Source: Micromonospora sp. Llam0 (lineage in GTDB: Bacteria > Actinomycetota > Actinomycetes > Mycobacteriales > Micromonosporaceae). From it: a stretch of DNA of 64,000 nucleotides. The number at the start of each line of letters is the position of its first letter. The stretch's first letter is position 1. The notes under the pieces were generated by a model. It did not search any database, was not told where the DNA came from, and saw only the letters and a list, made by a program, of their open reading frames with translations. This document shows positions 2,438-19,473 of the stretch, piece by piece. The position numbers and the translations under genes are program-made. The DNA is taken from assembly GCF_003751085.1 (NCBI RefSeq), contig NZ_RJJY01000001.1, positions 5,084,001-5,148,000 of the forward strand, in the 5' to 3' direction.

Positions 2438-2608
2438 CGCTCGCGGCTTGAGCCCTTCTGACTTGATTGGCCCAGGAACCGAATTCCGCTGTCCATGGGT
2501 GCGCGTCGTCCGGCACCAACAGCAGCCGCCCTGCACCCCAATGAAGACCGACTTCTCGAGTCGGTGAAGGGCCAGGTCGTAGACGGAGAGCTCCACATCA
2601 TGCTGGCG

Positions 2609-3912
2609 GTCGCAATGGAGACCGGCCCCGGTGGGCCGGTGACGGGCTCGGCATCGTCGTCTGGGAGATCCGCTCGGAGGCGTTGCAATGGAGACCGGCC
2701 CGCGTGGGCCGGTGACGGTCGCGCACGCCGGATACCCGGCCGACCTGCCCCCCGACGTCGCAATGGAGACCGGCCCGGGTGGGCCGGTGACGGCCGAGCG
2801 CAGGCAGGAACGTGTTGCCCAGGTCGATCGCGTCGCAATGGAGACCGGCCCGCGTGGGCCGGTGACGGCGACCGCGTAGGTGACGTCGCCGGGCTCGCCC
2901 TCGGTGTCGCAATGGAGACCGGCCCGCGTGGGCCGGTGACGGCGGATGCAGTCAGCGGTGCCCGACGAGTTGCCGAGATGGTCGCAATGGAGACCGGCCC
3001 GCGTGGGCCGGTGACGGGCCGGCTTCCATCACACCGAGGCAACGCTGAGGGTGGTGTCGCAATGGAGACCGGCCCGCGTGGGCCGGTGACGGTGCCGGTG
3101 CCGCCCGGGGCGTGAGCCGGCAGCATCACGTCGCAATGGAGACCGGCCCGCGTGGGCCGGTGACGGGTGGCCGCACCGTCGGCGGCAGGGTCGGAGTGAC
3201 CCGTGTCGCAATGGAGACCGGCCCGCGCGGGCCGGTGACGGGACGGACAGGACGACGGATTGCCGTTCTGACCAGCGCGTCGCAATGGAGACCGGCCCGC
3301 GTGGGCCGGTGACGGGTCGCCGACTGGCGACTGGCGCACAAGATCACCTCGTCGTCGCAATGGAGACCGGCCCGCGTGGGCCGGTGACGGTGCACGCGGA
3401 CAGCAGCCGGTTCATGGATTTCATCCTTGTCGCAATGGAGACCGGCCCGCGTGGGCCGGTGACGGTCGGTGCGTGACAATCTGCTGGAAACCGCGCCGGC
3501 TAGTCGCAATGGAGACCGGCCCGCGAGGGCCGGTGACGGACGGTCAACCCGGAACCGTCGCGCGGGTCGATCCAGTCGGTCGCAATGGAGACCGGCCCGC
3601 GAGGGCCGGTGACGGACCGAGAGCTGTCGCAGGCGTTGGAGCCGCTGGCGGTGTCGCAATGGAGACCGGCCCGCGAGGGCCGGTGACGGGGGTAGCTCAG
3701 CAGGTAGCCGAGCAGGCCCAGCGAGGTGTCGCAATGGAGACCGGCCCGCGAGGGCCGGTGACGGGGCGTCGCACGAGGTGACGGCGTACTGGGCTGCGGC
3801 GTCGCAATGGAGACCGGCCCGCGAGGGCCGGTGACGGCGGCAGCGGCAGCCCGCAGTATCTGCGGCGACGCTGCTGTCGCAATGGAGACCGGCCCGCGAG
3901 GGCCGGTGACGG
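2609..3912 (-). CRISPR. CRISPR array, type I-G, 18 repeats / 17 spacers
   Basis: Eighteen 37-bp repeats begin at 2609, 2682, 2757, 2832, 2906, 2981, 3056, 3130, 3205, 3279, 3354, 3429, 3503, 3579, 3653, 3728, 3801 and 3876, with spacers of 36-39 bp. On the plus strand a repeat starts GTCGCAATGGAGACCGGCCC, has a 4-base loop and ends GGGCCGGTGACGG, so it forms a 7-bp CCGGCCC/GGGCCGG stem. The array is assigned to the minus strand for three reasons. The transcript would then end each repeat in CTCCATTGCGAC, like the ATTG-containing 3' handles of type I repeats. The cas genes run the same way. Divergent repeats (1, 2, 3) lie at the low-coordinate end, as expected for the old, leader-distal end. 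Repeats 13-18 all carry loop GCGA, while repeats 2, 4-8 and 10-12 carry GCGT. Confidence 0.97.
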
Positions 3913-4189
3913 GGCTCGCGAACTGGCCATATAGGCAGTTCGCGATGGAGTTCAATCGAGTTGCCGGTCGGGTTGGTCCGGTTTGGCTGCATATCCGGGT
4001 TCGGAACCTCCCGCGTGAGACGTGTCCGCCGGGGGTTCCGAGGTCGGTGGACGTATCGGGCGCATCTGTTCATTTATCAATCAAACGACTCCGTGACCGT
4101 CGGCGCGGCGGAAGTGGGGGCAGCGTACTCGGCGGCACCGACGCAATCGCTGGCGTCGCTGTGGTGGCTGGTGACCCGGACGCCGGTTG
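3913..4189 (-). promoter_or_regulatory. Probable CRISPR leader
   Basis: This is a 277-base gene-free stretch between the end of the cas operon and the conserved, leader-proximal end of the array. It contains a perfect 9-bp inverted repeat, CGCGAACTG (3917-3925) / CAGTTCGCG (3936-3944), whose right arm runs into TTCGCGATGGAG, a near copy of the repeat start GTCGCAATGGAG. There is an AT-rich patch at about 4070-4095 that could hold the array promoter. The leader role is inferred from position and repeat polarity. No promoter was demonstrated. Confidence 0.6.
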
Positions 4190-5160
4190 TCACGGTTTTG
4201 TGGGTGTCGGGCCGTTGATGGTGACCGGGGTCGGGGCGAGCACGCCGGCTGATTTGCGGCCTTCGACGGGTTGGCGGGCGGCGGCGGCCACGGTGAAGAC
4301 GCCGAGCGGCGCCCACCTGGCCGAGTTGATGGTGACGCCCTCGCCCGGCCGCAGCTCGCGGTGCTCCAGCAGAGCGGTCACGGCGTGCCGTTCCAAGGGT
4401 TGCCGCCACAGTGGCCACAGCATGACCGGCTGACGTCGACCGGGCACCTGATGCCAGCCCGTTGCTGCCACATTGCTGCCGTCGCCGGTCAGCCGCAGCA
4501 TCGGCAGCGCCATGATGGCCAGCCAGGTGGCACCGGGCACGCCGGCTTCGACGGACTTGCCGGACGGGTGGTCGGCCGCGCCGCGTACCACTCGGTGGTC
4601 GAGGTATTCGCCGGTGTAGCCGTCGACGCGCCGCCAGCCGGTAAGTGCTTGTCGGATCAGCGTCGTCTGGTCCTTGCGTACCTCTTCGAGGGGTTTGGTG
4701 AAAAACGAGCGCAGGCTCTGCTGACCGGCGGGTGCGGTGTACGGGGTGAGTGCGGCGCGGCCTTTCGCGTCGGCGGCGAGGTCGGTGACCAGTGCGGCCA
4801 GCCACCGTACGGCCGCCGGGTCGCCGCCGGTGAGCCTGTCGGCCACAGTCCGGAACTCATCGCGGGTGACCCGCATCGGGTCGGGTGCCTTGCCAACCTT
4901 CGACGCGGGGAAGGTTGCCGGCACGCCAGGGATCACTCCGTCGGGCGGGATGGTGTCGAGGATGCCGACGATCGTGGACACCAGGTCATCCAGTGCGGTC
5001 AGCCTGCGGCTGTGCAGTCGGGCGACGGCGGTCCGGCGTCGAACGACAGCGCGGTGACGGGGTCGTGGTGGTCGGCCAGGAGCCGCAGGGTGCCCAGCGC
5101 CGCGAGGAACCCGAGCGGGTCCCGCCCGTCCAGAGCCGGCAGCTCGATCGGGTCGGTCAC
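4190..5160 (-). pseudogene. Type I-G Cascade large-subunit-like gene (Csb3/Csx17/Cas8-like), apparent frameshift
   Basis: Last gene of the cas operon. The GTG at 5160 overlaps the cas3 stop (GTGA) and opens a frame reading ALDGRDPLGFLAALGTLRLL, the typical N terminus of these I-G proteins. That frame stops at 4999 after about 53 codons. The remainder (TAVARLHSRRLTALDDLV through to 4190) lies in a different frame. One extra base near 5035 would join them as LSFDA-x-TAVARLHSRR, so a one-base deletion, a sequencing error or -1 slippage is implied. The joined product would be about 323 residues, much shorter than Csx17 proper (roughly 700), so it is more like the shorter Csb3/'Cas3-extension' proteins. 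In the family this subunit joins the Csb1/Csb2 surveillance complex. The exact family name is uncertain. Confidence 0.7.
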
Positions 5161-8100
5161 AGGGCTGTCCCTTCCTGGTCGCCAGCGGGCGTTTCCTCAT
5201 CGCGGGCGGACGCCCAGATGTCGGCCAGTCGCACGACGGTTTCCAGCAGTGCCAGACCCCACCGGCCGCACACGTCGTTGAGGTGGGCGAACCGGGCCGG
5301 GGCGGACCAGTCGACGGTGTCGGCGGAGTCGAACAGCGGCAGCAGACCCGACACGGCGACCTTGACCGGCCGGTCGTCGACGACCGGTGGCAGCAGTGGA
5401 CGGTTGCGGCCGTGGTGACTGGCGACCAGGTGCACGACCAGCTCCGGGTCGCGGTCGCCGGTGTGCCCGGCCAGTCGGGCGGCGGCGATCCGCGCCGACA
5501 GCGCTTCGTGTCGCATCCCTGGTGGGTAGCCGGCGGCGTGTTGGGCGCGGCGCGCTTCGGCGAGGTTGGCGGGGTCGAGGCCCGATTTGGCCAGCGGCTG
5601 AGGGGCGAGCTCGGCGAGCTCCGGCCGGCCGGCGTGCAGCATCGCCTGGAAGCGGGTGTCGCGTTTGCCGTCGTCGTGCCAGCGGGCGGCGGATTCGACG
5701 CTGGCGGTCAGTGGCGCGGGCAGGCCGAGGTTGCGGGCCATTTCGGCGGCGCGGGCGGCGACCGCCCGCTGATGGTCGTCGAGGTGAATCCGCCGACCGG
5801 GGTACGCGCTGGCGGAGCTGCCCGCTTCCGAGTCGTCCTCGGCCTGCCGGTAGCCGGGACCCCGGCCGCCGGCTGGTTGCCGGGCCGCCGGTTGTCGGGC
5901 GGTGGTGAGCAGCAGCGGGAACGGCGGCTGCCAGCTCCGGCCGGTCTCGGCGTCGAGGACCGTGGCGGTACGGGTGACGTGCAGGTCGGCGTCAACCATG
6001 GGTTGCAGGGTGCGGTCGTGCAGCGGATGGTCGGGGGTCAGCGCGGTGGCGAGCGCCCGAAGGAGTTCGCGGTAGCCGGCCGCGTCGGTCGGATCCTGGT
6101 CTGCGGTCGGTGCGGCAAGCAGCGCGTCGAGGGCCGCTTCGATGTCAGGTCTCAGCGGCTGCTGCGGGTCGGGCCGGTAGCTGACGACAAGTGGGCGCAG
6201 GTGGGGGCCGATGCGCAACAGTGGTCGGCCACGGCGGCGGGCCAGGTCGGCGACGTCGACGACCGGTGCCCGGCTGGCCGGGTGCCAGCCGAACTGGTCG
6301 CAGCCGCCGTACTCGACGGGTAGGACGATGGTGTCGCCGGGCCGGATCTGGGCTGGGCTGATCACCTCGCCGCCGCCCCGGTGCGGGTAGCGCAGCACCA
6401 GCCGGTCGGCCGTACCGCCGGGTGTCGGGGTCGGCTCGTCCGGCGCGGCCGCGAGGTCGACGTCGGCGGTCAGGTCGGCCGGGTCCGTGCCGGTCAGCAG
6501 CCGGCGTAGCGCATAGATCGGCACCTCGATGGCTTCGTCGGCGACCGGCGGCACGATGTCGATCGTGGGCGACCACTGTTCGGTCTCATCGGTGGGCAGC
6601 CCGGCTCGCCAGATGACGGTGACGGCGGGCGGTTCGGTGCCGATGCCGTGCAGGTAGGGGGCGACCGGCGGGTCCGGGTGCGGGGTGGGCGAGCTGCGGG
6701 TCCAGGCGTCCAGGGTGGCCGGATTGAGTAGTGGCACGTACCGGTCGACGGCGGTGACGGCCGCGGCCGGGGCCTGGGCGCGCAGCTCACGCAGCGCGGC
6801 CGGCGACACGTCGCGGAAGTCGCCGTGGTGGGGGGTGGCCGGGGCGGCTGGCGTGATCCGGCCGGCGAGCCACTGCCAGGTGGCGAGGCGGGCCGGCCCG
6901 TAGACCGGGTCGTCGGCGTCGACGGTGCTGTCGTGCACCAGGTACGCGGGGGCCGGTGCATCGTGCTGACCGAGCCGGTTGAGTCGGCCGAGTCGCTGGA
7001 TCAGCGCCGGCAGCGGAGCTGATTCGCTGATCAGCGCGTCGGCGTCGATGTTGGCACCGACCTCGATCGTCTGGGTCGCCACGACGATGAACGGGCGGTC
7101 GTCGGAGCGGTCGCGGCCAACCTTGATCCGCTGGTAGTGGCGCTTCAGCAGCAGGTCCCGGTCGATCGGCCGGATCCGCCCGGTCAGCAGAACGGCGTCG
7201 GTGCCGGCCGGCAGCCGGTCGAACACGGCGCGGGCACGGGCAACCGTGTTGGCGACGACGGCCACCACGCCCCGGTCGGCCAGCCGGGCGGCGAGGTCAG
7301 CCATCACCTGCGGCACCTCGGTGGCTGCCTTGCGCCGGTTGGTGTCGACCTGGACCAGGCGCAGCCGTTTGCCGGCCCGCAACCGCTGCCCCGCATCCGG
7401 GTGGTCGAGGTCGGCGGTGCTGATCGTGTGCACCGTCGGCGTACCGATGCCGGTAGCCGCCGGCCGGTCGTCGTCGGCCGGGTTGGTCGCGGACATGGTG
7501 ACCAGCACCGGTCGACGGGCGATCGGCCACCGGTCCAGGTCGAGGGCGGCGCGGGCGGTGGTGTGGAACGCGGCGGCCAGGTGGGCTTCGTCGACGACGA
7601 TCAGGCTGTCGGTGCCGACGAGTGCCGCGTCGATGCTGCGCGCGTACTCACTGACCCCGTACCCCCGGAACAGCAGCCGGCTGCCGACCTGGTCGATGGT
7701 GCCGGTGATGATCGCCCGCCGGTCCGGGCGTTCCAGCCAGACGCGGTCCCAGGTGACGCCGCCGCGCATCCGGGCGACGGTCAGCACCTCACCGGGGTCA
7801 CCCACGGCGCGCAGCCGGTCGGCGACCGCGCCGCACACCGGCCCGGCGGCATCCGCCCCCAACGCCTGCCGGATGGCGGTGGCGTGTTCGTGGGCTTCGT
7901 CGACGACGAGGCGTCGGTCGACGACGAAGAACGTCCGCCGGGGCGCGAGATCGGGGCGCAGCGCGGCGACGAACACGGCGACGTCGAGCACGGTCGTCTT
8001 GCCGAGCCCGGTCGGCACGTCGATGACGTCGGGCCAGCGCCCGTCGGCAAGGATCCGGTCGAGCAGCGCCTGCTGCCAGGGGAACGGCCGGCGCCCGCCG

Positions 8101-8177
8101 TGCGCCTCGGCGACGAAGTCGGCGAAGTGTGCGGCGGCCAGCTCCGCGACGGTGGCCTGTCGGCCGGTGCCGTGCAT
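5157..8177 (-). CDS. cas3: CRISPR-associated helicase-nuclease Cas3, type I-G
   Basis: A 1006-residue protein. The helicase comes first: Walker A DVPTGLGKT with Lys60, DEAH at 196-199, and motif VVATQTIEVGANIDADALI with the arginine-rich IQRLGRLNRLG. The HD nuclease domain is at the C terminus (RWHDDGKRD with HDD 834-836, later LVASHHGRNR). Helicase-then-HD order is the hallmark of type I-G/I-U Cas3 and the reverse of most other Cas3 proteins. In interference it is recruited by target-bound Cascade to unwind and degrade invading DNA. The ATG at 8177 is preferred for its upstream GGCGGAG. A longer frame would read back over the end of csb2. It is followed by a GTGA overlap with the large-subunit gene. 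Confidence 0.93.
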   Translation of the reverse strand: MHGTGRQATVAELAAAHFADFVAEAHGGRRPFPWQQALLDRILADGRWPDVIDVPTGLGKTTVLDVAVFVAALRPDLAPRRTFFVVDRRLVVDEAHEHATAIRQALGADAAGPVCGAVADRLRAVGDPGEVLTVARMRGGVTWDRVWLERPDRRAIITGTIDQVGSRLLFRGYGVSEYARSIDAALVGTDSLIVVDEAHLAAAFHTTARAALDLDRWPIARRPVLVTMSATNPADDDRPAATGIGTPTVHTISTADLDHPDAGQRLRAGKRLRLVQVDTNRRKAATEVPQVMADLAARLADRGVVAVVANTVARARAVFDRLPAGTDAVLLTGRIRPIDRDLLLKRHYQRIKVGRDRSDDRPFIVVATQTIEVGANIDADALISESAPLPALIQRLGRLNRLGQHDAPAPAYLVHDSTVDADDPVYGPARLATWQWLAGRITPAAPATPHHGDFRDVSPAALRELRAQAPAAAVTAVDRYVPLLNPATLDAWTRSSPTPHPDPPVAPYLHGIGTEPPAVTVIWRAGLPTDETEQWSPTIDIVPPVADEAIEVPIYALRRLLTGTDPADLTADVDLAAAPDEPTPTPGGTADRLVLRYPHRGGGEVISPAQIRPGDTIVLPVEYGGCDQFGWHPASRAPVVDVADLARRRGRPLLRIGPHLRPLVVSYRPDPQQPLRPDIEAALDALLAAPTADQDPTDAAGYRELLRALATALTPDHPLHDRTLQPMVDADLHVTRTATVLDAETGRSWQPPFPLLLTTARQPAARQPAGGRGPGYRQAEDDSEAGSSASAYPGRRIHLDDHQRAVAARAAEMARNLGLPAPLTASVESAARWHDDGKRDTRFQAMLHAGRPELAELAPQPLAKSGLDPANLAEARRAQHAAGYPPGMRHEALSARIAAARLAGHTGDRDPELVVHLVASHHGRNRPLLPPVVDDRPVKVAVSGLLPLFDSADTVDWSAPARFAHLNDVCGRWGLALLETVVRLADIWASARDEETPAGDQEGTAL

Positions 8178-8193
8178 CGTTCGCTCCGCCTGC

Positions 8194-9639
8194 TCATCGT
8201 TGGGCAACGGGCACCTCCGGGACGAACACGCCGCAGCCGAGGTAGCGCAGGGCACCGGCGATGACCGGGCCGCGTACCGGTTCGGCGAAGCTGATCCGGC
8301 AGTGCACCAGTGGTCGGGACGGCCGCTGCTTCGGCAGGGTGCCGCGCCGGGGTGCGTTGATCGCGCCGCGCAGCGCCGGTGCGTCGAGCACGGTCACCGA
8401 CACCGGCCGGGGGTAGCCGGCGGTGACGAGCCCGTCGGCGACGATGTCGGCGGCGCTGCGGCTGCGGTTCGGGAAATGGTCCAGCATCATCGGGCTGGCG
8501 GTCACCCATCGTTGTACGCCGGGCGGCGGACCGGTCCACCGGTCGGCGCGCACACCCCAGGTCGTCGGCGGCTCGGCCGGGTCAGCCAGCTGCACCGGGC
8601 CGAACTGGTTGCCGTTGAGCGTCCGGATCGGGTCGTCGCCGGTCGGGCCGAACAGTCCGGCCAGCACCGCCCGGCGGTCGGGGTCGGGTAGGTCGGTGGG
8701 CAGCGCGACGGCGACGCCGAGCAGGTGTCCGTCGGCGTGGCGGTGGCCGACGTCGAGCAGCGGCAGGTACGCCAGGTGCGGCCGGCCGTCGGCGCCGTGC
8801 CCGCTGACCTGGGCCGGCAGCGGGTCGGCCACCCGGTCCATCACGGTACGCCGCAGCAGGCCGGCGACCTGCAGGATCCGGTCGCCGCGGATCGGTACGT
8901 GCCCGCGCCGTACCGGCCACACCAGCAGCGTCCGGTACGGTCCGGTCGCGTCGGCCGGTGGTGGCGGCTCGTCGGGCTCCGGCGGGCTACCCACCGCGTA
9001 CGCGATCGACCGCGCGGTTTCCCAGGCCCGCTGCCCGTTGTCGTATGCGGCGATCAACTGGTCGGCGTAGCCGGGGTACGGCACCCGCAGCTCGATCGAC
9101 CTCGGCGCGCCGAGGCGGGTCGGCTGATACGTCGTCCACCTCGGGCGGTGCGGCACCTGCTCGTCGTGCACGGTGATCTCGACGTTGCCGGTGGACCGGC
9201 CCAGGTACGGCACCCGCCGGGCCAGTCGGGTCAGCCGCCACAACACGCCGTCGTCGGGCTCGGCGGCCGGCCAGACGAACGCGACCCGGTCATCGGCGGG
9301 CAGCGCGCTGCTGCGGCTGCTCGACCGGTTGGTACGGCCCGGCCAGAAGGTGCTGCCCGAATTGGCCTCGGTCGCGTTGGTGACCACGAAGCCGCTGCGG
9401 ACGCTGGTGTGCACGTTGGCTGGTGCGACCGCCGCGACCAGGGGTGGGCCGGCCTGCTCCAGCCAGCGCAGCGCCGCCAGGTCAGCGATCTCGGCCGGAC
9501 TGCCGCTGCCATGCTCGACGGCGGCGACCAGCGCGTTGAACAGGCGTGCCGGATGCGGCGGCCACTCCGGATCGGCGGGTGTGGTCGCCGCCGCGTCGTA
9601 GCGGGCCTGCCTCAGCAGTACGGTGATGCTCAGCGCCAC
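8194..9639 (-). CDS. csb2: Csb2 (GSU0054 family; Cas5-Cas6 fusion of type I-G)
   Basis: A 481-residue protein with the Csb2 signature: N-terminal PEWPPHPARLFNALVAA, then RRVPYLGRSTGNVEI and a conserved C-terminal CRISF strand. In type I-G this protein combines the Cas5 role (holding the crRNA 5' handle) with the Cas6 role (cutting pre-crRNA at the repeat hairpin). The likely substrate is the 7-bp-stem repeats of the array at 2609-3912. The start is GTG 9639, five bases after the csb1 stop. It is the second gene of csb1-csb2-cas3-large subunit, all on the same strand as the array. Confidence 0.92.
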   Translation of the reverse strand: MALSITVLLRQARYDAAATTPADPEWPPHPARLFNALVAAVEHGSGSPAEIADLAALRWLEQAGPPLVAAVAPANVHTSVRSGFVVTNATEANSGSTFWPGRTNRSSSRSSALPADDRVAFVWPAAEPDDGVLWRLTRLARRVPYLGRSTGNVEITVHDEQVPHRPRWTTYQPTRLGAPRSIELRVPYPGYADQLIAAYDNGQRAWETARSIAYAVGSPPEPDEPPPPADATGPYRTLLVWPVRRGHVPIRGDRILQVAGLLRRTVMDRVADPLPAQVSGHGADGRPHLAYLPLLDVGHRHADGHLLGVAVALPTDLPDPDRRAVLAGLFGPTGDDPIRTLNGNQFGPVQLADPAEPPTTWGVRADRWTGPPPGVQRWVTASPMMLDHFPNRSRSAADIVADGLVTAGYPRPVSVTVLDAPALRGAINAPRRGTLPKQRPSRPLVHCRISFAEPVRGPVIAGALRYLGCGVFVPEVPVAQR

Positions 9640-9644
9640 CGGAC

Positions 9645-10823
9645 CTACACCTCTTCTGCTGCGGACTGGGTGAGGGCGTGCCGGATCGCCTCGGCGAGCG
9701 ACGTGATCGGGCTGATCGCGATGACGTCGTCGTCCATCCGGATCCCGGCGGCCGTCGCCCGGCTGCGCAGCTCCCGGAAGGCTTCGATCGCCTCGGCCGT
9801 CGACACGTCGACCGGGTCGAGCGTGCCGCCGTCGCCTTCGAAGGCGACGGTTTCGCGGTGGCGGGTCAGGTCACAGCCGGACCGCAGCCACAGCGAGGCC
9901 CGACCGAAGGCGAGCCGGTCGCCGACCAGGGCCAGGGCGGCGAGCGTCGCCCGAGCTGCGGTCGCCGCTTCGGCCGACGCGTCACCGAAGCGCAGCCGCT
10001 CCAGGCCGGCCAGCGAGATCCAGCCGTACCGCCGGATCTCCCGCACCGTCACCCCGCCGTGCACAGTGTTGGGCGCGATGTGCCCGTGCCCGATCTCGCT
10101 GAGCTTGCCGCCTTTGGCTTTCGTGCCTTCCGGCAGGAAACGCCAGTCGCGCTCGGCTTTGCCCTTGTCGTCGATGGCGCCGGTCAGGTTGACCGGGTCG
10201 ACCTTGCCGGCCCGTCGGTCCCCGATCGACCAGTCGATGCCGAACATCGACGACGAGTAGATGCGGGGGAATTTCGGCCACCGTCCTTTGCGGTGCGAAT
10301 CCCAGGCACCAAAGATCAACGAGTACGGTTCCCGCTGGTACAGCGGGCGTACATCGGTGGCCGAGGTCGAGCGCAGCGCCTTACCGACCGGGCTACGGTC
10401 GAATCGCTCGCCGTCCACGTCGCTGTCGCGCAGGTAGGCGTCGGCGTACCGGTGCGGGAAGTCCAGCGAGGTCAGCCGTACGCCCTCCTCTTTCATGGTC
10501 AGTTCGAAGATCGGCAGGTCGAGGCGACCGCCGTCGCGCGCCGCCAGCAACGCCTCCTCGACCCGGTTGGCCTGCGACGGCACCTGGTCGACGATCACGG
10601 TGTCGCACAACGTCTCGTCGATGAGTCGGCGTTCGACCGCGTACGGCACCGGATCCCGGCCTTCGCGTTGAGCGGCGGCCCTTTCCCGGTCGGGAATCGG
10701 AAACGTCGGCGGCATGATTTTGCCGCCCGGCCCGCCCACCGGCTGGTATACCCCGTTGAACACGATGCCCGCATACGAGCGATCTTCATGAACCGCGTCA
10801 AGCAGGCGGTCAGCAAGCGACAT
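9645..10823 (-). CDS. csb1: Csb1 (GSU0053 family; Cas7 backbone of type I-G)
   Basis: A 392-residue protein beginning MSLADRLLDAVHEDRSYAGI and containing GVYQPVGGPGGKIMPPTFP and VDQVPSQANRVEEALL, which match the Csb1/Cas7 family. It would polymerise along the crRNA to form the Cascade backbone. The ATG at 10823 has GGAG eight bases upstream. The alternative GTG at 10832 directly abuts that Shine-Dalgarno sequence and is less likely. It is the first gene of the cas operon, so the operon promoter should lie in 10824-11119, which is otherwise empty and divergent from the STAND NTPase gene. Confidence 0.92.
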   Translation of the reverse strand: MSLADRLLDAVHEDRSYAGIVFNGVYQPVGGPGGKIMPPTFPIPDRERAAAQREGRDPVPYAVERRLIDETLCDTVIVDQVPSQANRVEEALLAARDGGRLDLPIFELTMKEEGVRLTSLDFPHRYADAYLRDSDVDGERFDRSPVGKALRSTSATDVRPLYQREPYSLIFGAWDSHRKGRWPKFPRIYSSSMFGIDWSIGDRRAGKVDPVNLTGAIDDKGKAERDWRFLPEGTKAKGGKLSEIGHGHIAPNTVHGGVTVREIRRYGWISLAGLERLRFGDASAEAATAARATLAALALVGDRLAFGRASLWLRSGCDLTRHRETVAFEGDGGTLDPVDVSTAEAIEAFRELRSRATAAGIRMDDDVIAISPITSLAEAIRHALTQSAAEEV

Positions 10824-11119
10824 CAGTGGCACTCCATAAGTGACGTGAAACGCGATTGAACATGTCTACCCCACAGGTCCGACATTCTGTCGAACGGGGA
10901 CAAGGTCCCTGCCACCACAGCCGCCGCGTTGAGGCGCCACCTCGGCCGGACCGCGGCGCCTTGTAGACCTCCGTCTACCTTGATCTCCAACGGCGCCGGC
11001 CAGTGACCGCTTGCTGACTCCTCCATTGCGCACCGTAAACGCCTCCCGCAGACTGGTACGACCTTCGCGACGTCGAAGGCGTTGACCGCCCTTCTGGTGC
11101 TTAAGGTGGCGTCACGGCT
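10824..11119. promoter_or_regulatory. Divergent intergenic region, cas operon / STAND operon
   Basis: These 296 bases separate two operons that start away from each other, csb1 leftwards and the STAND NTPase rightwards. A 67-codon minus-strand open frame here looks non-coding. The segment must hold both promoters, and any shared control of the two putative immune systems would act here. No clear palindrome was found by eye. Confidence 0.4.
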
Positions 11120-13234
11120 GTGGATGGCATCACCGCTGGTGTCAACGAGCTACTCGGCCTGCTCTCCGCACTGCTGGCGGTCATCGCGGCGGCACTCGCC
11201 CTGCCCCCGTTGATCGGACGATGGCGGCGTGGCGGACGGCCGAGGCGTCAACCACCCAAGATCCTCCTGCCGTCACGCACCCAGCTCGTCGACCGCACCG
11301 ACGAGGTTGCTCAGGTCCTGCAGCATCTCGACCGGGGCGAATACCTCGTCTCCATCGAGGGCAGCATTGGCGTCGGAAAGAGCGCGCTGGCCACCGAGGT
11401 GGCCCACCGGCTCGCCGAACGACGCACCGGCCGGCAGCAAGCACGGGGATACACCTCGCTCGTCTGGTTCGACGCGCACAACGGCGCGCTCGGCCTTGCC
11501 GATCTCGCTCGTACGCTCGGGCTGGCCGCCGGCGACCCGACTCTGTCCGCGGCACCAGCCGAACACAAGGCAGAGGTGCTGCGCGCGTTTCTCGCCGATC
11601 ACCCTGCGGTACTGGTCATCGACAATCTCCGGCTCAGCGCGACGGACGCCCACCACCTGGTCGGCTTTCTACGGACCCTGCCGAGTGGATCCCTCGCCAT
11701 CGTCAGTGCCAACACGCCGGGCCGGCTGCCGGCGCCGCGGGTGATGCTCCAGGAACTTCAACAGAAATACACAGAGGAGCTGCTGATCCGCGAGGCGACC
11801 CGGCGCGGCGTGACCGACATTCTCAACGCCGATCGAGCGACGCTGGCGCGCCTGCACGAGCTGCTGGGCGGGAACCCGCGAGCGATCGAGCTCTTCGCCC
11901 TGGCGTGTTCACACGAGGGCCGGAGTTTCTCCATGAGATTACGTCAGCTGGAAGCCGGATCCGCACAGCTGACTGACGCGTTGTTCACTGTGGTGTGGCA
12001 TGACGTCAGTGCGGCCGGGCGAAGCCTGCTGAGCGTTTGCGCATTCCTCAGCGGAAGCGCGAACGCGGAGCAACTGTGCGTTGCGCTCCATCTGCCGCAG
12101 GACGAGGTTGAGGACCTCGCGGAACGCTTGTGGTCGGACGGGCTGATCTCCTCACATCAGCGGCATGACACCACCTTCTACACCTGCTCGGCGGCGCTGC
12201 GTCTGTTCGTACTCAACCACACGCCGGAAGCACAGCTCAACGAAATCGCCATCTGCCTCGCCGACCACTTCATCAGTCGGTTCGGCCAGCACTGGGAGGA
12301 TGCTTCCGGCGCCGAATCCCACCTCGACGCCATCCGACTGCTGATCCGGGAGCGGCACCACAACAGAGCGTTCGAGCAGAGCTTCAGACTCTTCGAAGTC
12401 ACCCTCGACATCTTCTTCACGCTAGGGCTCTTCGACGATCGGATCGACCTCGGCTGGGTGGCCTACGAGGCGGCGACGGCACGCGGGAAGGGCGAGGAAC
12501 GCTCGCTCGCGTTGTCCGTGATCTCGTCGACGCATGCTATCCGGGGCGAAGAGGCAGCCGCAGCCCGTACCGCCGATCTCGGCCTCCGCATCGCCCGCGA
12601 GATCGGTTCGGTCAAGGAAATCGCACGTCAGCTCAGATGTGTCGGGTTCCAGCTCTTCCGAGCCGGGAAGGCGGTCGAGGCACTGGCTGTCGTCAAGAAC
12701 GCCGGTGAGGACGCCGAGGTGATGGCCCGGTCCGCCGGCGACTTCAACAATATGATCGACATTCAGTCGCTGGTCGGGGCCGCCTACTGGCATCTGGGTC
12801 GACTCGATCAGTGTGCACAGACCGTCCGGCGGTTCCTCGACTCATGTGAAGAACTGCCCTGGGAGCGGGGCAAGGCCTACGCGATTCGTGATCTCGCCGA
12901 AGTCAGCATGATGGGTGGCGCTTTTCAGGACGCCATGCTGCTCCTCGATCAGGCACGCCGCATCGCTGTCACGTACCGCGATGTACGCCAGTTGGTGAGA
13001 GTCGACCTGACGGATGCTCGCCTACACCTATTCCAAGGTCGGATGATAAGGGCCAGGAGGTACGCACTCCGGGCTGCCGCCGACGCCCACAGCTTGTCGC
13101 TGATCGGCGAGCAGGCCGAGGCGGAGGCAGTAGCAAGGTATGCAGTCCGCGCCCTGGTCTGGCCGTGGTTGTGGGTTGTGGCGTTCCGGAAACCAAGAAT
13201 CCGGTTCACCGAAATGACCGTAGGTGGCGATTGA
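11120..13234 (+). CDS. Membrane-anchored STAND (NB-ARC-like) NTPase with helical-repeat C terminus
   Basis: A 704-residue protein. Residues about 5-33 form a hydrophobic anchor (LLGLLSALLAVIAAALALPP) followed by a basic RWRRGGRPRRQ stop-transfer patch. Then comes a STAND NTPase core with Walker A IEGSIGVGKSALA (Lys87), Walker B AVLVIDNL (about 162-170) and a GGNPRAIELFAL helix typical of the NB-ARC/AP-ATPase GxP motif. Beyond about residue 400 the chain is alpha-helical with TPR-like pairs (EERSLALSVISSTHAIRGEE; GAAYWHLGRLDQCAQTVRRF). STAND proteins are ATP-dependent switches that oligomerise on sensing a ligand through their repeats. The start is GTG 11120 with AAGGTGG upstream. It is the first gene of a five-gene operon including a caspase-like protein, so a sensing role is inferred. 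Confidence 0.85.
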   Translation: MDGITAGVNELLGLLSALLAVIAAALALPPLIGRWRRGGRPRRQPPKILLPSRTQLVDRTDEVAQVLQHLDRGEYLVSIEGSIGVGKSALATEVAHRLAERRTGRQQARGYTSLVWFDAHNGALGLADLARTLGLAAGDPTLSAAPAEHKAEVLRAFLADHPAVLVIDNLRLSATDAHHLVGFLRTLPSGSLAIVSANTPGRLPAPRVMLQELQQKYTEELLIREATRRGVTDILNADRATLARLHELLGGNPRAIELFALACSHEGRSFSMRLRQLEAGSAQLTDALFTVVWHDVSAAGRSLLSVCAFLSGSANAEQLCVALHLPQDEVEDLAERLWSDGLISSHQRHDTTFYTCSAALRLFVLNHTPEAQLNEIAICLADHFISRFGQHWEDASGAESHLDAIRLLIRERHHNRAFEQSFRLFEVTLDIFFTLGLFDDRIDLGWVAYEAATARGKGEERSLALSVISSTHAIRGEEAAAARTADLGLRIAREIGSVKEIARQLRCVGFQLFRAGKAVEALAVVKNAGEDAEVMARSAGDFNNMIDIQSLVGAAYWHLGRLDQCAQTVRRFLDSCEELPWERGKAYAIRDLAEVSMMGGAFQDAMLLLDQARRIAVTYRDVRQLVRVDLTDARLHLFQGRMIRARRYALRAAADAHSLSLIGEQAEAEAVARYAVRALVWPWLWVVAFRKPRIRFTEMTVGGD

Positions 13235-13257
13235 CATACACCGGGAGGGCTCAGAGC

Positions 13258-14031
13258 ATGCCAGCTACAGCGGAGGAGTTGCGGTATCGCGTCAGTGTCG
13301 AAGATGACGAACTCGCAACGGTGGTCACGCAGCCGACAGGTAACGCGGTGAGCTGCATGGTACTGATGCTGCACGGTGGACCCGGCGGAGAGAAGGACGG
13401 ACCCGAGCAGCTGTACGCGAATCTTGCTCGGCAACTCGCCGAGCTTGGCATCGCGTCGGTGCGGTTCGACTTCAGGGGCTGCGGCGAGAGCACCGGCCGC
13501 TACCGCGACATGACCATCCGTCGGCAGGTCCATGAGATGCGCGCGGTGCGGGAGTTCGTCGACGAGAGATTCCGGCCGGGCGCGTGGGTGTTGATCGGCG
13601 AGAGTTTTGGGGCCACCATCGGCCTGAGCGACCTCGATCCGGCGTACAAGGCGATTGTCATGCTGTGGCCGGCCATCTGGCTGTTGGACGGCACCTTCGA
13701 GTCCTATCTGAACCCGGAGCACCTCGAATCCGCCGAACGCGAAGGCTTCTCCGAGATCGACGGCGAGCAGATCGGCTTGGACTTCCTCCACGAACTACAG
13801 CAGGTCGTAGATGTCAGTGCGCCGCTGGTCGATCTTGCCACACCGGTGTTGTTCATTCACGGCACGGCCGACCGGGAGGTACCTTTCCAACAGAGCGTGC
13901 GAGCGGCCGAGCTCGTCGGCGGAGCGAGGAAGGTGGTTGTCATCAACGACGGCGACCATTGCCTGGAACGGCCGCACGAAAGAGAAATCGTCCACCGCGA
14001 GACGGTGACATGGATCGCGGCTCACCTCTGA
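13258..14031 (+). CDS. Alpha/beta-hydrolase (serine hydrolase)
   Basis: A 257-residue alpha/beta hydrolase. The oxyanion region is LMLHGGPGGEKDG, followed by VRFDFRGCGESTG, the nucleophile elbow GESFGA (Ser116), acid FIHGTADREVP (Asp205) and base NDGDHCLERP (His234), so the complete triad is present. The closest general type is the dipeptidyl-peptidase/acylpeptidase-like or serine aminopeptidase-like hydrolases. The substrate (peptide, ester or lipid) is unknown. GGAGGG lies eight bases before ATG 13258. It starts 23 bases after the STAND gene and overlaps the caspase/FGE gene by 22 bases, so the three are translationally coupled. In this setting it could be an effector or a processing enzyme (inference). 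Confidence 0.88.
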   Translation: MPATAEELRYRVSVEDDELATVVTQPTGNAVSCMVLMLHGGPGGEKDGPEQLYANLARQLAELGIASVRFDFRGCGESTGRYRDMTIRRQVHEMRAVREFVDERFRPGAWVLIGESFGATIGLSDLDPAYKAIVMLWPAIWLLDGTFESYLNPEHLESAEREGFSEIDGEQIGLDFLHELQQVVDVSAPLVDLATPVLFIHGTADREVPFQQSVRAAELVGGARKVVVINDGDHCLERPHEREIVHRETVTWIAAHL

Positions 14032-15728
14032 CAGTCGGAGCACTCTTTCTCGCACCCCAGCAGTCCTCGGCCTTTCCCGCCATCCCCGGCCAACGCGGTA
14101 GCAGGACCGGCGGGGACCTCCAGTGGCAGCTGGGTCAGCACTTCGACGTGCGCTCAATCGTGCTCAGGGCCGGGCAGTTCGGCAGTCCGACCAGCGCGCT
14201 CCGGGCAGTCAGAGCCGCAGCTCAGGATCTTGACGGCGTCGGCATGCTGCTCGTGGCGTTGGCCGGTCACGTCGCTCACTTCGAACGCACGACCGGTGAC
14301 CTGGTGTCCCTCGTACTCCCGAACTCGGTGCCGGGTCGTCCCGGCAGCATGTTGCCGATGGCCGACCTGATCGCCGAGCTGCATGGCTACGACGCGACAG
14401 GAAGCGTCGTGATCTGCGCCGATCTCACCACGGCGCCGAGCGGGAGCGTACCGCTGTCGCCGATACCCGGCGTACACCTGCTCGCGTCCATCCCCGGGCC
14501 GACAGTCGCAGTCGGGCGCACCTGCCACGACGCCCTCGCCGCCGAACTCGGCGACCTGGCCGCTTCCGGCGAGCTCCGGCCGCTGAACGAGGTCCTGCAC
14601 CGTGCGGCGGACCGCGCCCGGGCCAGCGGCGTAGCGGTGCACGTCAGCGCCCTTGACCGACCGATAGTTCTCAGCGCGAAGTACCCCGAGGAACAGCTGC
14701 CCGACTACGTGCGCGAGGACCTCTACTCACCCCACGCAGGGTCGCGTCTCGACGCCGTCACCGAGCTGGCCGCTCTCGCGCCCAGCAGCGCACACGCGCG
14801 GGTCTGCCTGCAGCGGGTCGCCACCCACGACAGCGCCGACGAGGTACGCAGCTATGCGGAATCCATGAGCCGCCAGGCCGAGCAGCCCACGCTGCAGGAA
14901 CTACTCGACAACGGGCGGATCTCGGCCACCGGGATCAGCGACGCGCTGCACCGGCCGGCGCTGCCCGACTTCGTGCCCCACTCCGGCGGCGAGGTCGTCA
15001 TCGGCCTCGATCCGCCGGACAGCAGGTTCAGTTCGTGCCGACCCCGGCATCTGCTCCGACTCCCGCCGTTCGAGCTGGCCCGCACGGTGGTGACCAACAG
15101 CCAGTACCTGGCGTTCGTCGCCGTCGCCGGTGGACCCTGCCCCGAGCACTGGGCCACCGGTGACAACCTGTGGGATGAGCCCAGCCTGCCGGTGGTGATG
15201 GTGTCCTGGCACGACGCCGTCCGTTACTGCGACTGGCTCACCCGACGGCTGCGGGCCGTCGGCCGGCTGACCGCAGACCAGCGTGTCGTGCTGCCCAGCG
15301 AAGCCGAGTGGGAGTACGCCGCCAGCAACGGGCGGGGCGATCCCTACCCGTGGGGTAGCGCCGCCGACCCTCGCGGTCGCCGGACGAACATCCGCGCCAC
15401 CGGCCTCGACGTGGTCGTCGCGCCGGGCCGGTTCTCGCCCCAGGGCGACAGCGCGGCAGGGTGCCAGGACCTGATCGGCAACGTCTCGGAGTGGACCCGC
15501 AGCAGGTGGGGAACCTCGGGACGGCTACCGACCTTTCACTACCCGTACCAGGCCGACGATGGTCGGGAAGCTAACGGCCCGTTACCCGACGCGCGGTACG
15601 TCATCCGCGGCGGTGCCTACTACTACGGTAGGGAGTGCGCCAATTCCTACACTCGCAATCAGCGGCTCGCTACCCAACGACATCCGGCGACCGGATTCCG
15701 GGTCGCGGTCGTCCGGCGTACGGGATAG
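14010..15728 (+). CDS. Caspase-like peptidase domain fused to formylglycine-generating-enzyme-like (SUMF1/FGE) domain
   Basis: A 572-residue fusion. Residues about 8-150 resemble a caspase/CHAT-type fold: opening strand VGALFLAP, then LLVALAGHVAHF with candidate catalytic His87, then GSVVICADLTT with candidate Cys136. The spacing fits a caspase His-Cys dyad. A short helical, HEAT-like stretch follows (about 235-290). From about 325 there is an FGE/sulfatase-modifying-factor-like domain: LPPFELARTVVTNSQYLAFV, PVVMVSWHDAVRYCDWL, LPSEAEWEYAASNG, DLIGNVSEWTRS, YVIRGGAYY and TGFRVAVV. These FGE-like domains are often non-catalytic binding modules. ATG 14010 lies inside the hydrolase gene. The FGE assignment is secure. 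The caspase assignment rests on motif order and needs a profile search. Confidence 0.8.
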   Translation: MDRGSPLTVGALFLAPQQSSAFPAIPGQRGSRTGGDLQWQLGQHFDVRSIVLRAGQFGSPTSALRAVRAAAQDLDGVGMLLVALAGHVAHFERTTGDLVSLVLPNSVPGRPGSMLPMADLIAELHGYDATGSVVICADLTTAPSGSVPLSPIPGVHLLASIPGPTVAVGRTCHDALAAELGDLAASGELRPLNEVLHRAADRARASGVAVHVSALDRPIVLSAKYPEEQLPDYVREDLYSPHAGSRLDAVTELAALAPSSAHARVCLQRVATHDSADEVRSYAESMSRQAEQPTLQELLDNGRISATGISDALHRPALPDFVPHSGGEVVIGLDPPDSRFSSCRPRHLLRLPPFELARTVVTNSQYLAFVAVAGGPCPEHWATGDNLWDEPSLPVVMVSWHDAVRYCDWLTRRLRAVGRLTADQRVVLPSEAEWEYAASNGRGDPYPWGSAADPRGRRTNIRATGLDVVVAPGRFSPQGDSAAGCQDLIGNVSEWTRSRWGTSGRLPTFHYPYQADDGREANGPLPDARYVIRGGAYYYGRECANSYTRNQRLATQRHPATGFRVAVVRRTG

Positions 15729-15738
15729 CCGGGCGACG

Positions 15739-17007
15739 GTGGGTGCCGACTCGTTCCCGGCCGAGGAACCGGTCCTGGGTCCTGGGATCTCCGAGGCCGT
15801 CGAGTGGGCGGGGCTGGTCGTCGCCGAGGCTCGCGGCATGCATCTGATCCGGCCGGACGGCAGCCGCGTCACGGATCTCATGGGTGCCGCCGGCGTCAAC
15901 CTGCTCGGTCACTCGCACCCCGGCTACGTCCGGGCGATGGCAGGTCAGCTGCAACGCTGGATGATCGGCGCGCACGGCTCGGACGCCCGGCGGGACATGG
16001 GGCGGCAGCTTCAGCGTCTGTTGCCCGAACAGCTCAACCGCATCCAGCTCTACAGCAGCGGCAGCGAAGCAGTCGAGGCCGCCCTCCGGCTGGCGAAGTC
16101 CGCCACCGGACGGTACGAGATCCTGTCGTTCTGGCAGTCGTTCCATGGCCGGACCATGGGTAGCCTCGCCCACACCAGCGGTGCCCGCAACGGCCTCGGC
16201 CCGCCGGCGCCTGGAAGCATCAGCGCCCCGTACGCCGACTGCGCCCGATGTCCCCTGCGCCTGTCCTATCCCAGCTGCGACTTCGCCTGCGTCGACCTGG
16301 CACGCGACGTCCTGCGGGAGCAGTCCAGCGGCGCACTCGCCGCCGTCCTCGTCGAGCCGGTACAGGGCCGGGCCGGCAACGTGTCGCCGCCAGCGGGTTA
16401 TCTGGCCCGGCTCAGGCAACTCGCCGACGAGCACGGAGCGTTGCTCATCGCCGACGAGTCGATGACTGGCATGGGTCGTACCGGCGAGGTCTTCGCCAGC
16501 GACCACCCGGACGTACGCCCGGACATCATGGTGCTCGGCAAAGGGCTCGGTAACGGTTATCCGGTGTCCGCGGTCTGCTCGTCGCTGGAACTCATGGAAC
16601 GCGGACCGTTCGGCGCACCCAGCGCGAGTTCGTCGAGCTACGGCGGGTTCCCCCTGGCCTGTCGGGCCGTCGCGGTTGTCGCCGAGACCGTGCGGGAGCA
16701 GGGTCTGGCCGGTCGGGCGCGCCTGCTCGGCGAACGGCTGCTCGCTCGGCTCTCGGAGTCCCTGGTCGATCTTCCGCTGGTCGCCGAGGTGCGCGGCCGG
16801 GGCCTCGCGATCGGGATCGAGTTGGACGTCGCCGACAAGGGGCAACTGCGCCACGTCTTCCAACGGTTGCTCAGCGCCGGGGTCCTGGTCATGACCGGAG
16901 GGCGTACGCTCCGGTTGTACCCGCCGCTGACCGCTGACGAGACCGAACTGATGGCGGCTGCCGACACCCTGTCCGAAGTGCTCCGACGGCACTGGGACGG
17001 GCAATGA
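15739..17007 (+). CDS. Class III (PLP-dependent) aminotransferase
   Basis: A 422-residue fold-type I enzyme of the class III aminotransferase family (the ornithine/acetylornithine/GABA aminotransferase group). It has GHSHPGYVRAM, YSSGSEAVEAALRLAK for the phosphate-binding turn, FHGRTMGSLAHT, the cofactor Asp in LLIADESMTGMGRTG and the PLP lysine in VLGKGLGNGYPVS (Lys268). The substrate cannot be read from sequence. GTG 15739, ten bases after the preceding stop, is chosen because the fold starts soon after. Upstream in-frame sequence overlaps the FGE domain and is not family-like. It overlaps the following oxidoreductase gene by ATGA. Confidence 0.88.
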   Translation: MGADSFPAEEPVLGPGISEAVEWAGLVVAEARGMHLIRPDGSRVTDLMGAAGVNLLGHSHPGYVRAMAGQLQRWMIGAHGSDARRDMGRQLQRLLPEQLNRIQLYSSGSEAVEAALRLAKSATGRYEILSFWQSFHGRTMGSLAHTSGARNGLGPPAPGSISAPYADCARCPLRLSYPSCDFACVDLARDVLREQSSGALAAVLVEPVQGRAGNVSPPAGYLARLRQLADEHGALLIADESMTGMGRTGEVFASDHPDVRPDIMVLGKGLGNGYPVSAVCSSLELMERGPFGAPSASSSSYGGFPLACRAVAVVAETVREQGLAGRARLLGERLLARLSESLVDLPLVAEVRGRGLAIGIELDVADKGQLRHVFQRLLSAGVLVMTGGRTLRLYPPLTADETELMAAADTLSEVLRRHWDGQ

Positions 17008-18035
17008 TCAGGGTCGCGGTGGTTGGCTACGGCCGCTGCGGCGAGGCCCATGCACGCTGCTACGCCGGCATGCCGGACGCGGCTGTCGTCGCGGTCGCGG
17101 ACCCGACTCCGACGAGGCGGCGGCTCGCCCGTCGCCACCACCCGCACGCGGAGGTGGTCCGGTCGTCCACTGAACTCAGCGCCGAGGTCGACCTGGCGCT
17201 GATCTGCACCCCGCCGAGCAGCCACGAGACGTACATCGAAGAGTCGCTGCTGCGCGGCGCGCATGTCTTCTGCGAAAAGCCCGTCTTCCTCGACCCGGTC
17301 AACGGCCGACGACTGATCGACCTCGCCAGCGCTCGGGCCCGGATCATCTTCCCTGGGCACAACTACCTCTTTGCGCCGGTCCTGAACGCGCTACGCGAAC
17401 AGTGCTCACCAGCACGCATCGGCCGGCCGCAGCGGGTCGAGATCACCATCGACCGCACCCGGCCTGCCCCCGGCATCTCGGACTGGCGGCCTGACTGGCG
17501 CAGCGACCGTGGCGTCGCAGGTGGCGGAATCCTGGTCGACCACGGCGCACACTGCGTGTACCTCACCGAGTGGCTCTGCGACCGGCGGATCCGCCAGGTG
17601 TCGTGCCGGATCCGGTACGGCGCATCCGGCATCGATCACTGGAGCGAGTTGCGGCTACGCCTCGGCGGCGGCGCCACCGCGACGGTGACACTCGACTGGC
17701 GAGCTGCCAGCAGACGGACCGCGTACCGGGTCATCGGCGAGTACGGCACCGCCGCTGCCGTCCTCGACGACCAACCGGGTGCGGTGCCCGGCGGCCGCGT
17801 CGCCGGAGCGGTTCCGGCTCAGGGCAGGAGCGGTCACGCCCACTCGGACTGGATGCCGGAGATGGCTCGCGAGGTACTTCGCCACGTGGCCTGCGCGAGC
17901 GACGTACGGACGCTGGCCGCGCCCGCGCTGACCGTCGCGGAGGTGATCGCCGCCGCTTACGCCTCCGCCCGAGCCGGCAGCCGGTGGCATGCGGTCGACG
18001 CCCACGACCCAGAGAGGACACACCGACCAAGCTGA
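17004..18035 (+). CDS. Gfo/Idh/MocA-family NAD(P)-dependent oxidoreductase
   Basis: A 343-residue protein with a Rossmann start VAVVGYGRCGEAHARCY, LICTPPSSHETYIEESL, the family's catalytic EKP (HVFCEKPVFLDPV) and the C-terminal-domain signature GGGILVDHGAHCVYL. Members oxidise or reduce sugars, inositols and related polyols. ATG 17004 overlaps the aminotransferase stop. An aminotransferase/dehydrogenase pair can convert a ketone or aldehyde, for example in aminosugar or aminopolyol synthesis. Their tight linkage to a STAND/caspase set suggests a small-molecule signal or modification (inference). It is the last gene of the operon. Confidence 0.9.
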   Translation: MIRVAVVGYGRCGEAHARCYAGMPDAAVVAVADPTPTRRRLARRHHPHAEVVRSSTELSAEVDLALICTPPSSHETYIEESLLRGAHVFCEKPVFLDPVNGRRLIDLASARARIIFPGHNYLFAPVLNALREQCSPARIGRPQRVEITIDRTRPAPGISDWRPDWRSDRGVAGGGILVDHGAHCVYLTEWLCDRRIRQVSCRIRYGASGIDHWSELRLRLGGGATATVTLDWRAASRRTAYRVIGEYGTAAAVLDDQPGAVPGGRVAGAVPAQGRSGHAHSDWMPEMAREVLRHVACASDVRTLAAPALTVAEVIAAAYASARAGSRWHAVDAHDPERTHRPS

Positions 18036-18544
18036 ACGGGGTGCCGGGCCGCGTGCGATCCGCACTGACAACTTCTCGCCGTGCGGCTGGTGTACGGGTG
18101 GTTGAAGTTGCCCGGACAGGGGGACCCGCCGCTCCACAGTCCGTGGACCTCTCCGGCCCACGTCAGCGCGAGAGCCCGGCCTTCGCTAACTTTCTGATCC
18201 GATAAGTCCTGGCCACGGGTCCGGAACCCACCGATACCGTGGGAATCCGTCTCCGACAGATGAGCCGTTCTCGCAAATGTTGGCCCCGGAGTTGCACGCA
18301 GAGTTACCGACTGCCGGGCTGGGTGTGCTCTCGGGGTTGATGCCACAGGTGCATCTTGATGCACCTGTGGCATCAAGACTGTGGCGACCCTCTGCCCCGG
18401 GAGCCGTGACGAGCGGCGTACTGCCTGTCCGCGCCAGCGCTCGGCGGCGAGCGCCCGACCCGCGTCCGGTCGGCATCGACGGTTGCCAGGCTGTACCGTG
18501 GCAGAGCCGCTCTGAGTCCGCATTGGAAAGTGGGAACACGCATC
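18036..18544. other. Intergenic region after STAND operon (509 bases)
   Basis: No convincing gene on either strand. The open frames here have poor starts and no family resemblance. The stretch contains the perfect 18-bp hairpin annotated separately and, at its right end, the promoter and ribosome-binding region (GGAAAGTGGGAA) of the following exported-protein gene. Confidence 0.5.
18337..18376. terminator. Perfect 18-bp hairpin (probable operon terminator)
   Basis: TTGATGCCACAGGTGCAT (18337-18354) and its exact reverse complement (18359-18376) flank a CTTG loop, about 300 bases after the oxidoreductase stop. It has no U tract. It is unusually AT-balanced compared with the neighbouring G+C hairpins. 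It may be a terminator, a protein-binding palindrome, or the end of a lost mobile element. Confidence 0.55.
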
Positions 18545-19453: not shown

Positions 19454-19473
19454 TCAACGGAGACGGTCTGAAC

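Follow-up and report, generated by a model that had tools for sequence, protein, structure and literature searches.

A CRISPR-adjacent five-gene block in Micromonospora sp. Llam0 as a probable composite of a STAND-type conflict module and a separable aminotransferase-dehydrogenase pair

The stretch of DNA analyzed here, called the window, comprises 64,000 nucleotides of contig NZ_RJJY01000001.1 of Micromonospora sp. Llam0 (positions 5,084,001 to 5,148,000), and within it five open reading frames (ORFs), all pointing in one direction, occupy positions 11120 to 18035 (Table 1). The genes, called g1 to g5, encode a STAND-type NTPase, an alpha/beta hydrolase, a protein with a formylglycine-generating enzyme (FGE) domain, a pyridoxal phosphate (PLP) aminotransferase, and a Gfo/Idh/MocA dehydrogenase. 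An initial annotation had proposed that they form a single conflict or defense system, tightly packed and divergent from a CRISPR-Cas operon. The arrangement was as described: with starts picked among in-frame codons, the genes are spaced, in order, by a gap of 23 bases, an overlap of 22, a gap of 10, and an overlap of 4, and the cas genes lie on the other strand. The unity of the five genes, however, is not supported by the comparative sequence data, as they were neighbors in no other genome searched. We conclude that the block is probably a composite accessory island, in which a STAND-switch conflict module (g1 to g3) adjoins a separable, amine-installing enzyme pair (g4 and g5). Two modules are preferred because g4 and g5 recur together without g1 or g2 and because g2 occurs without the other four in G079, a genome of the same genus.

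Table 1. Features of the island and the five-gene block (window coordinates)
Feature	Position	Strand	Description
CRISPR array	2602..3926		18 repeats found; first repeat at left edge of island
Type I-G cas genes	4190..10832	-	cas8g-like, 4190-5200; cas3g, 5157-8255; cas5/6g, 8194-9639; cas7g, 9645-10832
Island	2627..18284		Missing from G093 and G105, two sister genomes
g1	11120..13234	+	STAND-type NTPase of 704 aa with P-loop at 81-88; segment resembling a membrane helix at the N terminus; C-terminal part predicted to be helical
g2	13258..14031	+	Alpha/beta hydrolase of 257 aa, retaining the motifs of the catalytic triad
g3	14010..15728	+	572 aa; possible caspase-like N terminus ~1-215, helical linker, FGE-sulfatase domain (C-type-lectin fold) 319-566
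g4	15739..17007	+	Class III PLP aminotransferase, 422 aa; PLP-Lys268
g5	17004..18035	+	Gfo/Idh/MocA dehydrogenase, 343 aa; CEKP and GGGILVDHGAH motifs

Both enzymes of the pair are what the initial annotation took them to be. The g4 product matches Pfam Aminotran_3 (E 3e-85) with a GKG motif at residues 267 to 269, of which Lys268 is invariant in the alignment with both of its relatives in the class, and g5 matches GFO_IDH_MocA. Homologs were sought in samples (200, 394, or 376 genomes) drawn from larger groups, with E-value cutoffs ranging between 1e-4 and 1e-85. Among 394 class genomes (E <= 1e-85), g4 was found in two others, Nonomuraea deserti (G329; 59% identity) and G482 (55%), each with a g5 homolog close by; none of the six other genus genomes had it at 1e-80. 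The g5 homolog of N. deserti overlaps the aminotransferase gene by 4 bases, the same as in the window, and the order in G482 is aminotransferase, inositol monophosphatase, g5 homolog. Moreover, a scan of genome contigs with g4 gave 590 confirmed loci, and among the best 80, which do not list G482, the four nearest g4 (L008 to L011) each had a g5 homolog within about 1.5 kb, on the opposite strand in L010. These four were N. deserti again (58%), an Acidobacteria metagenome-assembled genome (MAG; 44%), and two Myxococcales MAGs (43%); the other 76 held a weak g5-like match only in L015 (24%, about 4 kb away). Overall, in the five loci found to resemble g4 most, two of them from Actinobacteria and three from the MAGs, the two genes are near neighbors, and the pair spans three phyla. 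All five paired g5 homologs share with g5 the CEKP motif, a GGGI..DHG.H motif, and a WR pair. When 84 loci, several of them short or short-flanked, were tested for g1 to g3 and g5, none matched g1 or g2 (E <= 1e-5; about 20 kb was covered around each of the five paired loci), and the only g3 matches, in L010 and L032, were to its FGE domain.

Of the first three genes, g1 and g3 are rare in the genomes sampled. The serine hydrolase predicted for g2 is upheld by its Pfam matches (Hydrolase_4/Abhydrolase_6) and triad motifs, and among 200 family genomes (E <= 1e-40) it occurred only in the window genome and in G079. The G079 homolog has 66% protein identity and lies between homologs of window genes 1345-2130 (88% identity) and 19450-20472 (61%), and the 19.9 kb examined around it held no significant match to g1, g3, g4, or g5 (best E 0.024). 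g1 was found in its own genome only among 394 class genomes (E <= 1e-25), and in a comparison of seven genus genomes the other six showed only 19 to 23 bits over the NTPase region. Searches with whole g3 likewise recovered only the genome of origin, both among 200 family genomes (E <= 1e-20) and among 394 class genomes (1e-30), and its N-terminal 310 residues matched only themselves among 376 phylum genomes (1e-4) and nothing among plasmids. A single inducible conflict system, with the STAND switch governing the making or unmasking of an amino-sugar or aminocyclitol signal or toxin, would fit the common direction, the tight spacing, and the position beside CRISPR-Cas within one island. That explanation is distinctly unlikely, however, as five other loci carry the pair without g1 or g2 nearby, G079 carries g2 alone, and the one g3 match beside the pair, in L010, is through the FGE domain only.

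What g4 and g5 make is suggested by the company their homologs keep. Pfam domains were assigned to ten selected neighbor genes; the home-made ORF calls of the analysis are rough and contain some wrong frames. L006 and L007 have an inositol monophosphatase (PF00459), L011 has a myo-inositol-1-phosphate synthase (PF07994), and L009 and L010 have a CDP-alcohol phosphatidyltransferase (PF01066), with a HAD hydrolase also in L010. Further neighbors are a condensation domain and a polysaccharide deacetylase in L006 and a second class III aminotransferase and a GMC oxidoreductase in L007. Because inositol or CDP-alcohol genes adjoin the homologs, analogy suggests aminocyclitol or amino-sugar chemistry for g4 and g5, with candidate substrates indicated by those neighbors; the homologs in L009, L010, and L011 possibly serve an aminocyclitol-headed lipid pathway. 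The best PDB sequence match of g5 is 6jw6, entered as "Dehydrogenase," which we take to be KanD2 of kanamycin biosynthesis. We note that positions 4777 to 19396 of L006, from N. deserti, look like a biosynthetic cluster around the g4/g5 homologs, with the condensation domain found by Pfam and AMP-binding, acyl-CoA dehydrogenase-like, and carrier-protein-like genes seen by eye.

The nearest described parallel is hygromycin A biosynthesis, in which Hyg17 reportedly acts as a myo-inositol dehydrogenase whose product Hyg8 has been proposed to transaminate (PMC10949010). There, a PF01408 dehydrogenase and an aminotransferase swap a hydroxyl for an amine, and g5 and g4 are the same enzyme types; Hyg18 and Hyg25, an inositol-phosphate synthase and a phosphatase, parallel the genes beside the g4/g5 homologs, and 1,236 cases of PF01408 genes near class III aminotransferases are given in the same text. 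The Hyg proteins are likened to g4 and g5 by description, and no inositol gene is found among g1 to g5. The initial annotation had also raised the prospect that the pair recurs without the first three genes in a known pathway; recurrence without g1 or g2 nearby was found, and the pathway is known only by analogy, of the hygromycin A type.

The reading of g1 as a membrane-anchored STAND NTPase with a helical tail held in its first part. Pfam AAA_16 is matched with an E value of 2.6e-9 (38.3 bits; cutoff, 32.6), a motif check found the P-loop, and hydropathy indicated the N-terminal membrane-helix-like segment. NACHT and NB-ARC matches were weak, as were winged-helix-like PDB matches falling within residues 273 to 359 (E 0.1 to 0.4), and AlphaFold2 without an alignment gave a predicted local distance difference test score (pLDDT) of 42.5. 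For g3, the proposed caspase-FGE fusion was confirmed at its FGE end (Pfam FGE-sulfatase, E 3e-35). The N terminus had no Pfam caspase (Peptidase_C14) match; home-made profiles gave a weak likeness to caspases, and the AlphaFold2 model made without an alignment was of low confidence (pLDDT, 40.7), with no significant Foldseek match. An AGH motif is present at residues 85 to 87, and a D-x-C motif is absent after the strand at 133 to 138. Alignments disagree on whether Cys136 or Cys172 occupies the catalytic position, Cys136 sits within a predicted strand, and its catalytic role is doubtful.

The FGE domain of g3 may bind a ligand. The cysteine that follows RGG in the aligned alphaproteobacterial plasmid relatives is replaced in g3 by alanine (RGGAYYYG); formylglycine-generating enzymes generally require a cysteine pair in that part of the domain. 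We favor, from sequence, a ligand-binding rather than an enzymatic domain. Two other FGE matches are present in the window's own genome. Diversity-generating retroelement (DGR)-diversified FGE domains on STAND proteins have been proposed as antigen sensors (PMC10907252). g3 was considered as a DGR target, a reading not favored: no template-like repeat was seen, and nothing in the window resembled a template for the last 178 bases of the gene (the longest other match spanned 23 columns), a reverse transcriptase not having been searched for.

Relatives of the FGE domain, as opposed to whole g3, were sought among plasmids and viral contigs. The plasmid search returned 25 records at E <= 1e-15, of which 8 were alphaproteobacterial (34 to 40% identity) and 17 were from Streptomyces (29 to 30%; 16 from S. 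clavuligerus). Seven of the eight alphaproteobacterial proteins were scanned, R. grahamii being left out, and five of them (L158, L160, L161, L163, and L164) combined a P-loop or STAND-type match (E <= 4e-4) with FGE. L159 had FGE with a weak HEAT match and a P-loop-like GGGKTT visible by eye, and L162, apparently frame-shifted, had FGE alone; the two Streptomyces proteins scanned were HEAT plus FGE. The alphaproteobacterial fusions, such as WP_342364088.1 of L158, share with g3 a DDGRE-containing stretch; they carry the NTPase in cis, unlike the separate g1 and g3, and g1 had no significant BLAST match to them (best E 0.28). Among viral contigs, 27 related ones matched g3 from residue 267 onward. 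A phage- or plasmid-borne unit was considered and rejected: these viral matches cover the FGE end of g3, the N-terminal 310 residues of g3 drew nothing among plasmids, and g1 drew nothing among phages and a single weak match among plasmids (Anabaena, 23% across 34% of the query). We note that the FGE genes of L158 and L159 have ABC-transporter and VOC neighbors in common and that in a Nostoc plasmid region (L089) the FGE gene comes after a HEAT-repeat gene and before a gene for a restriction enzyme.

Because the nearest plasmid FGE relatives of g3 are mostly NTPase-FGE fusions, and because comparable combinations have been published, g1 to g3 have the look of a conflict module and are plausibly a new variant of STAND/FGE modules. 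The conflict-system themes invoked initially are indeed in the literature: STAND NTPase-FGS combinations and AP-ATPase-TPR proteins beside caspases have been described (PMC8195603), and in VMAP systems caspase-superfamily domains are reported to be accompanied in every case by a neighboring alpha/beta-hydrolase gene (PMC7159879). Like the NTPase-FGS systems, the block has a STAND NTPase (g1) and a PF03781 C-type-lectin-fold domain (g3). In those systems, however, these form one protein, often with an N-terminal effector-associated domain (EAD) or effector, whereas g1 and g3 are separate and no EAD was matched by Pfam in g1 to g5 (E <= 0.05). The VMAP ternary systems resemble g3 and g2 if g3 is caspase-like, but those described include MoxR, vWA, and VMAP genes, and no such Pfam domain occurs among g1 to g5.

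Several observations weigh against such a composite. The helical-repeat assignment of g1 is on weak evidence, the caspase assignment of g3 is weak, and three of the five plasmid NTPase-FGE proteins have NTPase calls below the curated cutoff, which only L158 (AAA_16 and NACHT) and L164 (nSTAND3) pass. PADLOC has no defense model that fits g1 to g5, its sole match being a weak TRIP13 on g1 (E 0.0056); among the NCBIfam models listed, likewise, none reached its cutoff for g1 to g5 (for g4, the best 25 of 69). Because the spacing is tight, cotranscription of g1 to g5 is suggested, which favors a shared function, and L010 has an FGE-domain gene, judged by eye to encode a lipoprotein, some 4.3 kb away from the aminotransferase. 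Finally, FGE-domain proteins on Streptomyces plasmids adjoin metabolic genes, with aminotransferase genes near two of three examined. Perhaps, then, g1 to g5 are a small specialized-metabolite cluster, with g1 as a STAND-type regulator, g3 as an FGE/EgtB-like enzyme or scaffold, g2 as a tailoring or self-protection hydrolase, and g4 and g5 as amino-cyclitol makers; the condensation-domain gene near a close g4/g5 relative in L006 points the same way. This is an unlikely account, however. The g3 FGE domain is nearer, among plasmid records, to the alphaproteobacterial group than to the Streptomyces FGE and HEAT proteins, no further biosynthetic genes were noticed by eye in 11.1 to 18.0 kb, and the g3 N terminus had no DinB/EgtB-type Pfam match.

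The chromosomal site bears on whether the genes belong together at all. G093 (G105 in parentheses) matches the window at 1 to 2626 (155 to 2644) and then, within about 50 bases, from 18285 (18292) on, at 87 to 93% identity. Because both flanks nearly abut there, the 15.6 kb of array, cas genes, and g1 to g5 are missing together. Both junctions carry a degenerate relic like a CRISPR repeat, which scores 22 in the G105 alignment and 15 in that of G093; the twelve top scorers among 3,000 random background windows each overlap one or the other junction. In the sister loci L100 and L102 the relics lie at about 18827-18858 and about 7606-7639, respectively. In G079, no such relic was found in 1.8 to 3.9 kb of reversed L103 (best score, 12). 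The relic repeat indicates that the array was probably lost from the sister species, and it also counts against the composite: with loss possible, a lack of the five genes in other genomes is no proof that they never worked as a unit. Among the four genus genomes compared, the site holds the full island, g2 without the rest, or, in two, nothing. Three different contents would suit chance neighbors, acquired independently at a variable chromosomal site and without joint function even within g1 to g3, as would the lower GC of g1 (0.650) and g2 (0.633) relative to g3 to g5 (0.700 to 0.713). Chance seems improbable, however, given that the reading frames overlap or nearly so and that FGE is fused to NTPases elsewhere.

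Gene content, motifs, absence from two sisters, and the separate occurrence of g4-g5 and of g2 were observed directly; what g1 to g5 do biologically, and which of them sense or act, we infer. On the composite that we favor, membrane-anchored g1 would be the switch. g3 would be a sensor or adaptor, with a ligand-binding FGE/C-type-lectin-fold head, a helical linker, and a caspase-like, possibly noncatalytic N terminus, and the likeliest catalytic effector would be g2. Either the g3 head or the helical tail of g1 might bind a ligand that signals an invader or stress, ATP-dependent switching of g1 at the membrane would gather g3 and g2, and g2 could then halt growth by acting on lipid or ester substrates. 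In parallel, and whether or not the pair is tied to the switch, g5 would oxidize a cyclitol or sugar hydroxyl with NAD(P), and g4 would transaminate the ketone to an aminocyclitol or amino sugar. If g1 to g3 are defensive, they would represent an actinobacterial counterpart, acting in trans, of NTPase-FGE systems, and if g4 and g5 act with them, chemical and protein defense would be coupled. We speculate, as a very unlikely extension, that a STAND-controlled defense operon captured the g4-g5 pathway, such that infection sensing by the FGE head causes a small-molecule antiviral to be made or to be freed by hydrolysis, with protein switch and chemical defense in one transcript beside CRISPR-Cas.

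Of the surrounding features, the CRISPR-Cas locus is assigned to type I-G because cas3g, cas5/6g, cas7g, cas8g, and an array are all present, the cas8g match being partial (residues 106 to 313 of 336). The four cas genes examined do not include cas1, cas2, or cas4, which were not searched for elsewhere. Rfam at gathering thresholds gave zero matches in window positions 1 to 22000, and thus no described RNA element. The downstream gene at 18530-19453 is present in six of seven genus genomes. Just outside the right junction, in flank common with the sisters, positions 18316 to 18397 hold a 40-nucleotide inverted repeat whose arms are 75% complementary and 2 nucleotides apart.

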